Source: a virus. Taken from it: a stretch of 34,254 nucleotides of DNA. Positions 6,984-23,880 of the stretch are shown in pieces (positions within the stretch are counted from its first letter, which is position 1; every line of letters begins with the position of its first letter). The notes beneath the pieces were generated by a model, which ran no database searches, was not told where the DNA came from, and worked only from the letters and a program-made list of their open reading frames with translations. The stretch is from the IMG/VR virus record IMGVR_UViG_3300042559_000426, positions 1 to 34,254 of that record; one strand, given 5' to 3'. A program made the translations under genes and the position numbers.

Positions 6984-7012
6984 AGGGGCCCCCAAGCCCC
7001 CTAGCCAAGCGA
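6984..7012 (+). ncRNA. GC-rich hairpin element, copy 1
   Basis: AGGGG (6984-6988) pairs with CCCCT (6998-7002) around a C-rich 9-nt loop, followed by AGCC and AAGCGA. The string AAGCCCCCTAGCC plus AAGCGA is shared with a second copy at 15833-15867, with a one-base indel between the two parts. Each copy lies downstream of a similar promoter. The orientation is taken from those promoters. Not a tRNA or a known riboswitch I can name; a regulatory RNA or processing/termination signal is possible. Confidence 0.4.
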
Positions 7013-7388
7013 TACTGACGACACTACTAAGGAGGTTATGGGGATGCTGTATACTCCGCCCTGAGATCTTCATTGTATCCCATAAAATGACAGATTTCAT
7101 AACATAATTCCGAACATACCCGAATTACTTCCCAAAATTCGACAGATTCATCAAGGTACAATTTGTGGAACATATGAGGGGGGGGGTGATTAACCTGTGG
7201 ATTGCATAGAGTTCAAAGTAGGGTGGGGATAATATATATATTTCACACGCTCCGACCGCAACACCGAAACGAAATTCTGAACCCAACCCCCCTTGAACAG
7301 CGTCAAAATGCGTGTGGTTTTTGGCGTTTTTGATATGCTTGTTACAGCAGTTAATTGAAGTAGTAGTTTAAGTTTGTGATGGTTTTTT

Positions 7389-7439
7389 GGAGGAGGAGGA
7401 GAGGGACAATCCCCTTCCCCCTTTTCCTTCCCCTTTCCT
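7389..7439. other. Purine tract followed by pyrimidine tract
   Basis: An uninterrupted 18-nt purine run of GGA repeats (7389-7406), then CAA, then a 30-nt pyrimidine run (7410-7439). GGGA/TCCC at the junction can form a small hairpin. Such tracts can adopt unusual helices and are found near origins or pause sites. Function not shown. Confidence 0.4.
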
Positions 7440-7632
7440 ACCCTATTTACCCTCCTATACATAAAGGCATTACATACCTTCCCATTGCCCCCGTTCCTGG
7501 AACGTATGTTTTTGGGCACGTTCTGCCGTGCTGTTGTGCAATTCTGCCCTGCTGTAAACTTTTTTTCGTCCGTAAACCCTTGATTTTGTTGGGGTTTCCG
7601 AGCGAGTTGCGATTTTCCGTAAAAATAATTCT

Positions 7633-7662
7633 TGCATATCCGAATTGATGCCGTAAGTTTGC
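7633..7662 (+). promoter_or_regulatory. Early rightward promoter
   Basis: TTG (7633-7635), spacer of exactly 19 nt, TAAGTTTG (7655-7662): the best match to the Bacteroidota housekeeping-sigma promoter in the window. Expected start about 7668. The leader is an unstructured CAA-repeat stretch before ATG 7705. It should drive the early operon that contains the four hammerhead ribozymes. Confidence 0.75.
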
Positions 7663-7704: not shown

Positions 7705-7968
7705 ATGAAAATTCAAGACCTTCAGAACTACGCCACCGCAAAGGGTATGAACTTTAGCCTGCTGACCAACGAGTTCGGTGAGCAGTATGCCGGCATTGAG
7801 TGGAAAAACAAGTACGTTTGGTACTGGTTCCGTGATGCAGTAGATTACACGCTGTTCACCGAGCGTTACTCACAAAACACAGGCCGCTCACAAGGCGCAG
7901 GAGTACGAACCGCTTGGCGTGCCGCTTGGAAAATTGAGCAGGCTGTTGAGGAGTTCACCAAAGGTTAA
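7705..7968 (+). CDS. First early protein, unknown function
   Basis: 87 aa, alpha/beta composition, rich in aromatic residues (KNKYVWYWFRDAVDYTLF). First gene after the early promoter, so probably made at the start of infection. Its last codons are ACC AAA GGT TAA; the GGTTAA forms the 5' strand of stem I of the hammerhead ribozyme that follows. No domain recognised. Host takeover or anti-defence is plausible by position only. Confidence 0.75.
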   Translation: MKIQDLQNYATAKGMNFSLLTNEFGEQYAGIEWKNKYVWYWFRDAVDYTLFTERYSQNTGRSQGAGVRTAWRAAWKIEQAVEEFTKG

Positions 7969-8014
7969 CTGACGAGGATTGAATATCCGAAACGGGCGAA
8001 AGCCCGTCTTAACC
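7963..8014 (+). ncRNA. Hammerhead ribozyme 1 (type I)
   Basis: Self-cleaving RNA. Stem I GGTTAA (7963-7968)/TTAACC (8009-8014); core CTGACGA (7969-7975); stem II GGAT/ATCC with 5-nt loop; core GAAA (7989-7992); stem III CGGGC/GCCCG with GAAA loop; cleavage triplet GTC, cut after C8008. All conserved hammerhead positions are present. The upstream stop codon TAA (7966-7968) is part of stem I. The cut leaves a 26-nt leader before ATG 8035. Confidence 0.95.
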
Positions 8015-8034
8015 AACACCTAAAAACACACGTT

Positions 8035-8349
8035 ATGAGCATTCACAAATTTGTAATCAAGTTCAGCAACCGCAAGAACAACAAATGCGTCAGTTTAATT
8101 GGTTACTTAAATGAGACAGGGTGGGGATTCTGCCAGTACGGCTCCTTCCGAAGTGAGCACGAAAGCAAGTACATCAATAGCACAGCGGAATTTATGTCGG
8201 CACTTGAAAAGTACCTATGCAATCCAAGCCTAATGATTTACAGCGTTCAAGTGGACGGCAATTTGCCTACAAAATTTCAGTATTGGAATGCCGAAGGAAC
8301 CCAGCAGGCACGTCAGGTTGTGGCTGAACTAATCGCAAAGGTTAACTGA
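8035..8349 (+). CDS. Early protein between ribozymes 1 and 2, unknown function
   Basis: 104 aa; starts MSIHKFVIKFSNRKNNK with a beta-rich N-terminal half and ends in a helix (QARQVVAELIAKVN). The leader CACGTT directly before ATG recurs at 8413. The stop TGA (8347-8349) lies inside the CTGATGA catalytic core of ribozyme 2, so a terminating ribosome would sit on the ribozyme. No recognised domain. Confidence 0.75.
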   Translation: MSIHKFVIKFSNRKNNKCVSLIGYLNETGWGFCQYGSFRSEHESKYINSTAEFMSALEKYLCNPSLMIYSVQVDGNLPTKFQYWNAEGTQQARQVVAELIAKVN

Positions 8350-8391
8350 TGAGTCCTAATTGGACGAAACGGGCGAAAGCCCGTCTTAACC
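8340..8391 (+). ncRNA. Hammerhead ribozyme 2 (type I)
   Basis: Stem I GGTTAA (8340-8345)/TTAACC (8386-8391); core CTGATGA (8346-8352); stem II GTCC/GGAC with loop TAATT; GAAA (8366-8369); stem III CGGGC/GCCCG with GAAA loop; cut after C8385 (GTC). Stem II differs from copy 1 with compensating bases. The stop codon of the upstream gene is U-G-A of the CUGA core. Confidence 0.95.
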
Positions 8392-8412
8392 AAAGCACTA
8401 AAAAAACACGTT

Positions 8413-8613
8413 ATGAAAAACTACAAAGAAGGAAACGTTTACCACCTGAACGGAGTTTACGATGGGTACAAAGTAACGTTCAAACAGCACCCTGAAGGAT
8501 TTTACGAAGCATATTCCAACGGACACCTCGGAGGCGCAACGTATTTCGGAACACTTGAGGAAGTAGAAAATTTCTACAACGACTGGATGGCCGAATTGAA
8601 CGCAAAAGGTTAA
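8413..8613 (+). CDS. Early protein between ribozymes 2 and 3, unknown function
   Basis: 66 aa, aromatic-rich, predicted mainly beta strands then a C-terminal helix (EEVENFYNDWMAELNAKG). The pattern YHLNGVYDGYKVTFKQHPEG followed by an acidic helix recalls small ubiquitin-like phage folds but I cannot assign one. The stop TAA (8611-8613) forms part of stem I of ribozyme 3. Confidence 0.7.
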   Translation: MKNYKEGNVYHLNGVYDGYKVTFKQHPEGFYEAYSNGHLGGATYFGTLEEVENFYNDWMAELNAKG

Positions 8614-8657
8614 CTGACGAGGCTTAAGTAGCCGAAACCCCTTCGGGGGTATTAACC
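8608..8657 (+). ncRNA. Hammerhead ribozyme 3 (type I)
   Basis: Stem I GGTTAA (8608-8613)/TTAACC (8652-8657); core CTGACGA (8614-8620); stem II GGCT/AGCC with loop TAAGT; GAAA (8634-8637); stem III CCCC/GGGG with a UUCG tetraloop; cleavage triplet GTA, cut after A8651. Stems II and III both differ from copies 1 and 2 while keeping pairing, and the triplet is an allowed NUH variant. Confidence 0.94.
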
Positions 8658-8680
8658 AAAGCACTAAAAACACTATCAAA

Positions 8681-8842
8681 ATGAAATCATTTATCTTAAC
8701 TACCGGCAAAATTGTAAAAGCGCAAAGCCGCTTGGATGCCCTTAAATCTCAAGACCTGTTCATCTACTGGAAAGGCAACAAGCCTTATGGCCTTGAATAC
8801 TACGGGGCAAAGAATGAAATCTACGCCAAACTTGTAAAGTAA
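8681..8842 (+). CDS. 53-aa early protein, unknown function
   Basis: Short ORF ATG 8681 to TAA 8840-8842, with the A-rich leader CACTATCAAA before ATG. Starts MKSFILTTGKIVKAQSRLDA and ends EIYAKLVK. It is followed after only 18 nt by the next gene with no ribozyme between them, so these two stay together on one cut fragment. Function not recognised. Confidence 0.65.
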   Translation: MKSFILTTGKIVKAQSRLDALKSQDLFIYWKGNKPYGLEYYGAKNEIYAKLVK

Positions 8843-8860
8843 TCTTAAAACACTACCAAA

Positions 8861-9040
8861 ATGAAAACAAAGCAAACCTACTACTTTTGGGTACACAACG
8901 GAGAGAAGTACGTTATCGTTGACGAAGTAATTTGCTCCCAACCTTGGCGAACCAACATATACAAATATATTGAGGATTCCTTTAATAAAGGCGTTATCTC
9001 TGAATTTGGCTACACCTACGACAAAGAAACCATCAAGTAA
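8861..9040 (+). CDS. 59-aa early protein, unknown function
   Basis: ATG 8861 to TAA 9038-9040. Starts MKTKQTYYFWVHNGEKYVIV and ends with GYTYDKETIK. The leader CACTACCAAA parallels the gene before it. The stop is 3 nt upstream of ribozyme 4, the only copy whose stem I does not contain the stop codon. No domain recognised. Confidence 0.65.
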   Translation: MKTKQTYYFWVHNGEKYVIVDEVICSQPWRTNIYKYIEDSFNKGVISEFGYTYDKETIK

Positions 9041-9043
9041 AAA

Positions 9044-9095
9044 GGTTAACTGAAGAGGATTGAATATCCGAAACCTGCTCCGGCAGGTCTTAACC
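9044..9095 (+). ncRNA. Hammerhead ribozyme 4 (type I)
   Basis: Stem I GGTTAA (9044-9049)/TTAACC (9090-9095); core CTGAAGA (9050-9056); stem II GGAT/ATCC with loop TGAAT as in copy 1; GAAA (9070-9073); stem III CCTGC/GCAGG with TCCG loop; cut after C9089 (GTC). The seventh core base is A here, C or T in the others, as expected for the one variable core position. Confidence 0.95.
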
Positions 9096-9109
9096 AAAAA
9101 AGTTAAAGA

Positions 9110-9289
9110 ATGAAAGCACACACCATCACCCACAACGGCAAGACCTTCTATGCTGTTCACGCCTTTTGGCCTGCCCGTTACCTGAAATCTTGGGCACTAC
9201 TTGACAACGAGGAATTGAAGACCAACAGCACTACGCTGTACTTCCGCACCAAGACCGCCCTTGTCCAACACGTTGAAAATAACTTCTAA
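9110..9289 (+). CDS. 59-aa early protein after ribozyme 4, unknown function
   Basis: ATG 9110 to TAA 9287-9289; 20 nt after the ribozyme 4 cut site. Starts MKAHTITHNGKTFYAVHAFW and ends with a helix TALVQHVENNF. No domain recognised. It is the last gene of the ribozyme-separated group; the following genes are joined by AAACAAAATG leaders instead. Confidence 0.65.
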   Translation: MKAHTITHNGKTFYAVHAFWPARYLKSWALLDNEELKTNSTTLYFRTKTALVQHVENNF

Positions 9290-9299
9290 TTAAAACAAA

Positions 9300-9746
9300 A
9301 TGAAAACAAAAGAATTTAACCGCATTGTAGACCTGATGGAGGAATTGAACTACGCCATCCTTGAGTATCAAGAAAAGGAGGATAGCGTAATCACCGAAAA
9401 GGTAATTGACCTTGCCCAAATGAAGCACGAAGCAACGGAATTGCAGGGCACTATTTTGTCTGCCGCAATCTCACTTGCGGAAGCCGGTGAAGCAACCAAG
9501 TGGGCACGTAAATGCTCCATCACAGGCCAAGGTATGAACGAGGGATGGTACTGCGAAGACCTTGGTACCTACTTCAAGTACGAAGACGATGCCCTGAATT
9601 TTGCACAGGAACATACCTACGCAGACCTTGAATGCGCCTATGCCGATGAGTTTATGTACTGGACGCAATGGGAGGATGACTCTGACTTTGAGTACGTTCA
9701 GGTTGGCCCAAAAGTTTGGGCGCTACTTGACTTTGAAGTTTATTAA
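9300..9746 (+). CDS. Early protein, helical N-terminus and conserved GMNEGWY patch
   Basis: 148 aa, acidic. The N-terminal half is helical (RIVDLMEELNYAILEYQEKE). The second part has CSITGQGMNEGWYCEDLG then YFKYEDDALNFA, a pattern seen in uncharacterised phage proteins where C-x-I-T-G-x-G-M-N-E-G may form a metal- or nucleic-acid-binding turn. The leader ends AAAACAAAATG. Function unknown. Confidence 0.7.
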   Translation: MKTKEFNRIVDLMEELNYAILEYQEKEDSVITEKVIDLAQMKHEATELQGTILSAAISLAEAGEATKWARKCSITGQGMNEGWYCEDLGTYFKYEDDALNFAQEHTYADLECAYADEFMYWTQWEDDSDFEYVQVGPKVWALLDFEVY

Positions 9747-9753
9747 AAAAAAC

Positions 9754-9784
9754 TTGCACAGGTAAGAATTAGTAACTACATTTG
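9754..9784 (+). promoter_or_regulatory. Rightward promoter inside the early block
   Basis: TTG (9754-9756), 20-nt spacer, TACATTTG (9777-9784). Expected start about 9790, giving a ~30-nt A-rich leader to ATG 9822. It lies in one of the few real gaps (75 nt) of the early block, which supports it. Confidence 0.65.
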
Positions 9785-23784: not shown

Positions 23785-23858
23785 GCCCCTGTAGCTCAAT
23801 TGGATAGAGCAACGCACTTCTAATGCGTAGGTTGATGGTTCAAATCCATCCGGGGGTA
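23785..23858 (+). tRNA. tRNA-Arg(UCU)
   Basis: Full cloverleaf: acceptor GCCCCTG/CGGGGGT (two G-U pairs), D arm GCTC/GAGC, anticodon arm ACGCA-CTTCTAA-TGCGT with anticodon TCT at 23819-23821, variable AGGTT, T arm GATGG-TTCAAAT-CCATC, discriminator A. No encoded CCA. Reads AGA (and AGG by wobble), probably topping up a codon rarer in the host. Confidence 0.95.
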
Positions 23859-23880
23859 CTAACACCATAAAATAAAAATT

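Follow-up and report, generated by a model that had tools for sequence, protein, structure and literature searches.

Early gene run and hammerhead elements

The stretch of DNA analysed here (the window) comprises the 34,254 nucleotides of the viral record IMGVR_UViG_3300042559_000426 from IMG/VR. A rightward block of genes in the window is opened by a run of seven genes, and further along the block lie genes for an Erf annealing protein, exonuclease VIII, a primase/helicase and ribonucleotide reductase, so that 'early' is a fair inference as a label for the run. The features of the run and its surroundings are listed below in order of position; the bit scores named R1 come from a model described in the next section.

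7632-7661, + strand: promoter-like match of Bacteroidota type, TTG-N19-TAAGTTTG, upstream of gene 1 (a sequence match only)
7705-7968, + strand: gene 1, 87 aa, no known function; TAA stop in stem I of ribozyme 1; 92% identical relative in locus L362
7963-8014, + strand: predicted hammerhead ribozyme 1, 52 nt, type I, triplet GUC; predicted cut 8008/8009; R1 72.4 bits
8035-8349, + strand: gene 2, 104 aa, no known function; TGA stop in the CUGA core of ribozyme 2
8340-8391, + strand: predicted hammerhead ribozyme 2, 52 nt, type I, triplet GUC; predicted cut 8385/8386; R1 75.5 bits, RF00163 30.2 bits
8413-8613, + strand: gene 3, 66 aa, no known function; TAA stop in stem I of ribozyme 3
8608-8657, + strand: predicted hammerhead ribozyme 3, 50 nt, type I, triplet GUA; predicted cut 8651/8652; R1 60.6 bits
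8681-8842, + strand: gene 4, 53 aa, no known function; gap to gene 5 without ribozyme
8861-9040, + strand: gene 5, 59 aa, weak phrog_9725 match, function not known; stops 3 nt before ribozyme 4
9044-9095, + strand: predicted hammerhead ribozyme 4, 52 nt, type I, triplet GUC; predicted cut 9089/9090; R1 68.6 bits
9110-9289, + strand: gene 6, 59 aa, no known function; conserved in L362
9300-9746, + strand: gene 7, 148 aa, no known function; conserved in locus L364; no ribozyme between genes 6 and 7
9754-9784, + strand: second promoter-like match of Bacteroidota type, TTG-N20-TACATTTG, regarded as marking where the first transcription unit ends; sequence also in L362

The run from gene 1 to gene 7 (7705-9746) has six gaps, and ribozymes occupy four of these. 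The initial annotation had placed the ribozymes in successive gaps; four gaps between early genes are indeed filled, but those between genes 4 and 5 (8843-8860) and between genes 6 and 7 (9290-9299) are empty. Start codons lie 20-30 nt 3' of each predicted cut. Pfam and PHROGs gave nothing informative on the array genes, and no named phage matched the early region in BLASTN. Promoter-like matches of the form TTG-N19/20-TANNTTTG number 8 in the window against 3.3 expected. Since this is only a mild excess, the limits of the transcription unit are inferred. A host among the Bacteroidota is suggested by the primase/helicase, which is similar to those of Flavobacterium, Cellulophaga and Maribacter phages.

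Two other places in the window may be mentioned. About 0.6 kb without convincing genes (7000-7630) separates the leftward genes from the rightward early block; it holds purine-rich and pyrimidine-rich runs and is probably a control region. A single tRNA-Arg (anticodon TCT) lies at 23785-23859, directly downstream of a glycosyltransferase gene.

What are the four elements? All of them have, on the + strand, the form GGTTAA-CTGANGA-stem II-GAAA-stem III-NUH-TTAACC. The full pattern GGTTAA-CTGANGA..GAAA..TTAACC has four matches in the window and none in 100 dinucleotide shuffles, and a structure-aware scan that demands all three stems gives exactly the same four elements, with 0 per shuffled window. 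Each copy folded alone adopts the hammerhead three-way junction (z from -2.3 to -4.0). Thus every hammerhead-like element claimed between 7963 and 9095 was recovered by pattern, structural scan and fold. The layout is that of type I, with both ends in stem I and loops closing stems II and III. An NUH triplet (GUC, GUC, GUA and GUC in copies 1-4) stands directly 5' of stem I, with A15.1-U16.1 in all copies, and the cuts are predicted after C17, C17, A17 and C17, at the same four sites as originally proposed. Stem I, GGUUAA/UUAACC, is common to all four copies. The other stems had been described as changing with full compensation. Their pairing does covary, but the four copies do not differ independently of one another: stem II and its loop are the same in copies 1 and 4, and stem III is the same in copies 1 and 2.

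A subclass of short type I hammerheads in phages

Relatives were collected from IMG/VR with at least 120 stretches per scan; one scan used the GGTTAA pattern, and two fixed the core and one stem II only, in order to avoid bias from fixing stem I. In an alignment of 68 divergent members of equal length, 343 cells are changed on both sides of a pair, against 83 after shuffling and 16-64 in controls with slid partners. Over the three helices, 14 of 16 pairs are changed on both sides, and the covariation score is 0.839 against 0.160 shuffled. Because the scan that collected the relatives demands paired stems, the proportion of paired cells is in part a product of that demand, but the variety of pair types is not. 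The core CUGANGA ... GAAA is present in all four window copies and invariant in the 68-member alignment. When the core was changed base by base with the stems still required, 4 elements were found over 27 substitutions, against 383 with the core intact (70 of them not search seeds), among the matches listed. Such a near-absence of core mutants is the pattern that would be expected if catalysis is what selection keeps. Core, triplet, covariation and the scarcity of core mutants strongly support the identification of the four elements as cis-acting type I hammerhead ribozymes, the identity first proposed for them.

A search with Infernal and the Rfam type I model had been suggested as a check, and it did not call the copies. 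At the gathering thresholds of Rfam no ribozyme copy is called in the window, where the sole match is a tRNA. The order of core, stems and cleavage triplet in RF00163 (Hammerhead_1) is the same as in the window copies, and copy 2 alone scores with this model, end to end, at 30.2 bits against the gathering cut-off of 34. That threshold is curated and is no biochemical definition, and the relatives show that it is too strict for this subclass: in 13 relative loci, 2 of about 62 copies (as counted by the structural scan) are called at the Rfam gathering thresholds. RF03152 (RAGATH-1) matches copies 2 and 3 weakly (20.8 and 18.7 bits, E 1.8 and 5.2), below its gathering score of 56.3. It shares the type I layout with CUGAUGA, GAAAC and GUC, but its model adds a 5' hairpin and has a stem I of 5 bp, and the window copies are not of the RAGATH-1 subclass. 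The model R1 was built from the phage relatives, with copies 1, 2 and 4 in its training set and copy 3 outside it. R1 scores the four copies at 60.6-75.5 bits, which for copies 1, 2 and 4 is partly by construction, while the untrained copy 3 reaches 60.6 bits.

Then what is constant in the subclass? The matches listed include 402 unique type I elements, 378 of which have exactly 6 bp in stem I. Of these 378, among the matches listed, 353 have A.A at positions 2.7/1.7 and 342 have G-C as the outer pair. Loop II of 5 nt is mostly U-N-A-N-U among the matches listed. The constants of the family are the 6 bp, the terminal G-C, the A.A and the UNANU loop; GGTTAA was rejected as a hallmark because stem I takes many sequences in the scans seeded with stem II. 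In bacterial genomes the GGTTAA pattern gives many single matches, which are not hammerheads under the structural scan.

Among elements seeded with a GUCC stem II, a UNAN[U/G] loop II occurs with a 6-bp stem I and A.A in 54/61 and with others in 8/45 (Fisher p 1e-13, an optimistic value inflated by related sequences). From this co-occurrence, a tertiary contact distinct from the known pseudoknot is suggested, in which the A.A (1.7/2.7) may touch the UNANU loop II. At the magnesium levels of cells, hammerheads that lack tertiary contacts cleave slowly. A contact of the A.A mismatch with loop II would make these short hammerheads fast; the lack of a loop on stem I in the window copies counts against fast cleavage. 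The loop II pseudoknot emphasised for the clusters of Perreault et al. (2011; PMC3088659) was also considered. Loop II can form at least 4 Watson-Crick pairs with the stem I flank in 64/324 cases, against 69 expected with loops dealt anew; this is no excess, and therefore the pseudoknot was rejected for the subclass. The window copies are instead short type I hammerheads with a 6-bp stem I, A.A and a UNANU loop II. Another comparison is with the fast minimal hammerheads of O'Rourke et al. (2015), which, in the part of PMC9217987 that describes them, are designed molecules with one tertiary contact at position 1.7, where U1.7, 7 nt after the cut, contacts an A of the GUGA tetraloop (loop II). 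The contact site would be the same, position 1.7 being unpaired and almost always A in the window subclass; it differs in that U1.7 goes with GUGA in the minimal hammerheads as described there, while A1.7 faces A2.7 and goes with UNANU here.

Some IMG/VR relatives form smaller groups. In L029, L031, L034, L041, L042, L058, L060, L098 and L111, stem III begins like UAAAGGCCC and the triplet is AUC or AUA; this subgroup is apparently one lineage. In L037, L039, L073, L077, L083 and L095 the hammerhead has a stem III CACCG with a 12-nt loop like ACCGCCAATAGG, and this loop may possibly pair itself, giving an extended stem III.

Position between genes and probable processing of the early transcript

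The relatives lie between genes. Among the matches listed, 16/359 relatives with enough flank fall within a sense ORF, compared with 50% of random places, and in 259/359 the cut is preceded by a gene end and followed by a start codon, each within 100 nt, compared with 7% of random places. The start codon follows the predicted cut at a median of 24.5 nt, and no locus has ribozymes on both strands, again among the matches listed. Arrays of 3 to 8 hammerheads are frequent among the relatives. The phage fragment L209 (IMGVR_UViG_3300042884_000166) carries at least 8 on one strand over 14 kb, with further core matches in the full record; its stem II types with UNANU and GUAA loops are mixed, and it has several stem I sequences.

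Copies of the subclass were also found in isolated phages, namely Agrobacterium phage OLIVR1, Methylophilales phage MEP301, Pelagibacter phages HTVC019P, HTVC131P and Jormungand, and Flavobacterium phages elemoB and elemoE. The idea of a prophage reservoir was set aside, the subclass being found in 1/395 Bacteroidota genomes under strict filters. Four pelagiphages of the genus Pelagivirus (L373, L374, L375 and L377) have a hammerhead upstream of a MarR-type regulator and an integrase, with two copies in L377, and their records hold these hammerheads without ribozyme annotation. The setting echoes the ardA/marR/integrase surroundings of the Agrobacterium tumefaciens array of Perreault et al. 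(PMC3088659).

What would four such ribozymes do in an early operon? The early polycistronic transcript probably cleaves itself at the four hammerheads into near-single-gene messages. Starting just upstream of gene 1, the transcript would give a message of gene 1, a message of gene 2 (8009-8385, 377 nt), a message of gene 3 (8386-8651, 266 nt), a message of genes 4 and 5 (8652-9089, 438 nt) and a message from gene 6 onward. Each upstream piece would keep its stop codon and would end in the folded hairpins of stems II and III with a 2',3'-cyclic phosphate, and each downstream piece would carry a 5'-OH leader of 20-30 nt, UUAACCA..., ahead of the start codon. The likely effect is that an early gene would have its own message with protected ends, and therefore its own stability and translation level. 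The anatomy agrees with the proposal that the array partitions the operon into near-single-gene units, as the relatives lie between genes with the cut about 24 nt before the start codon; the partition is nevertheless incomplete, with genes 4 and 5 sharing a unit, and the cleavage itself is a prediction. Against the processing of the early transcript stand the two of six intergenic gaps without ribozyme and the weak evidence that the promoter matches provide. Ribosomes that end on or in ribozymes 1-3 could also delay folding.

The initial annotation had further regarded the array as a distinct mRNA-processing system. It is not new in this sense, because Perreault et al. (2011; PMC3088659) already described clusters, cleavage and processing into gene-length mRNAs. 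In that work multiple clustered hammerheads in prophages flank single genes or short blocks, tandem arrays cleave in vitro (those of Clostridium scindens, Azorhizobium caulinodans and Agrobacterium tumefaciens), one array cleaves in E. coli, and a role in making gene-length mRNAs was proposed. This is a direct precedent for cleavage by tandem phage hammerheads. As in those clusters, the window and its relatives have several hammerheads to a phage operon, placed between genes and on one strand; the window differs in coming from an uncultured phage with genes like those of Bacteroidota phages.

Alternative roles and the common stem I

Could the elements serve without cutting, or be kept for another reason? 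It is extremely improbable that they are inert structures at 3' ends or in spacers, such as mRNA-protecting hairpins or terminators. Each element does hold two stable hairpins, but there is no T tract and no terminator call at the four sites, and a non-catalytic hairpin needs no CUGANGA, GAAA, A15.1-U16.1 or NUH; with single core mutants almost absent, this reading is already disfavoured. Cutting might otherwise be regulated, if the ribozyme is covered by ribosomes that complete the upstream gene; heavy translation would then block cleavage, and the ribozyme would report translation of that gene. Genes 1, 2 and 3 all terminate within stem I or the CUGA core, and for the relatives among the matches listed a common end of the upstream stop codon is ribozyme position 6 (64 cases) or 10 (52), again within stem I or the core. 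However, stop codons are built into stem I (..TAA) and the core (CTGA), so that any frame that enters the ribozyme tends to end there; the stop of gene 5 falls 3 nt short of ribozyme 4, and packing in a compact genome explains the overlap of stops with ribozymes. Such regulation seems unlikely. The ribozymes might also persist as edges of exchangeable gene cassettes, with recombination at shared sequences swapping the early genes. When the window is compared with L362, the genes that lie between ribozymes have been replaced, with the ribozymes and the outer genes kept, ribozyme 1 of L362 is the same as ribozyme 2 of the window, and window ribozyme 1 is a mosaic with the stem II of copy 4 and the stem III of copy 2. 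A raw count of breakpoints gave an apparent enrichment (68% at ribozyme gaps against 58% at other gaps), which lost its significance with clusters as units: over 25 clusters of related loci, broken neighbourhoods amount to 0.69 at ribozyme gaps and 0.62 at others, with a paired difference of 0.11 (CI -0.03 to 0.24). Moreover, recombination needs no strict conservation of a catalytic core, and the conservation already follows catalysis and not sequence identity. Exchange of cassettes as the reason for the ribozymes is very unlikely on this evidence.

A further question is why stem I is common within an array. All four window copies have GGUUAA/UUAACC, and because of this the UUAACC end of one ribozyme could pair with the GGUUAA of the next; if cleavage were followed by ligation, a 5' end docked in this way would give circular single-gene mRNAs or shuffled joins. 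In loci found with a stem II seed, neighbours can exchange stem I strands in 46/99 pairs against 6% of between-locus pairs. The difference of stem I within arrays is 0.43 times that between loci (CI 0.36-0.52), while the same ratio is 0.90-0.96 for stem II, 0.97-0.98 for the upstream flank and a moderate 0.75-0.83 for stem III. On the other hand, more than half of the neighbouring pairs in the 99-pair set are incompatible, and the arrays L190, L209 and L290 use different stem I sequences. Spliced or circular products were sought by Perreault et al. (PMC3088659) and none were found, and no RtcB ligase was found in the phage record, which may be incomplete. A shared stem I would also be expected from host-specific tuning of leaders (stem I being the 5' end of the next message), from phage lineage, or from copying between ribozymes. 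Thus homogenised stem I, which cross-docking needs, is also expected from host tuning or lineage, and joining of the cleaved ends seems improbable.

RtcB ligase joins 5'-OH and 2',3'-cyclic phosphate ends, as made by hammerheads. Cellulophaga phage Calle_1 (L370, record 49463-50866) encodes an RtcB ligase, and the stretch read there has no hammerhead of the subclass.

As far as the open-access literature shows, what is new is the subclass with A.A and UNANU, the fact that Rfam misses nearly all of it, the geometry that it keeps between stop and start codon across many phages, and its homogenised stem I. Perreault et al. (PMC3088659) noted that many hammerheads lack the known contacts; one such missing contact might be supplied by the A.A and UNANU module, a candidate that can be tested. 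That a new tertiary module of this kind is combined with an array-constant stem I for the sake of interchangeable ends is quite unlikely; if true, the early operon would yield circular or re-joined messages besides linear single-gene ones. Within arrays the homogenisation is specific to stem I.

The subclass is common in environmental phages, with a near-uniform geometry between stop and start codon, and R1 is a simple search model for these hammerheads, of which the reference library calls almost none. The isolated carriers are phages in which 5'-OH RNA ends could be mapped. The probable self-processing of the early transcript bears on what phages use hammerheads for, which has been a question since 2011.
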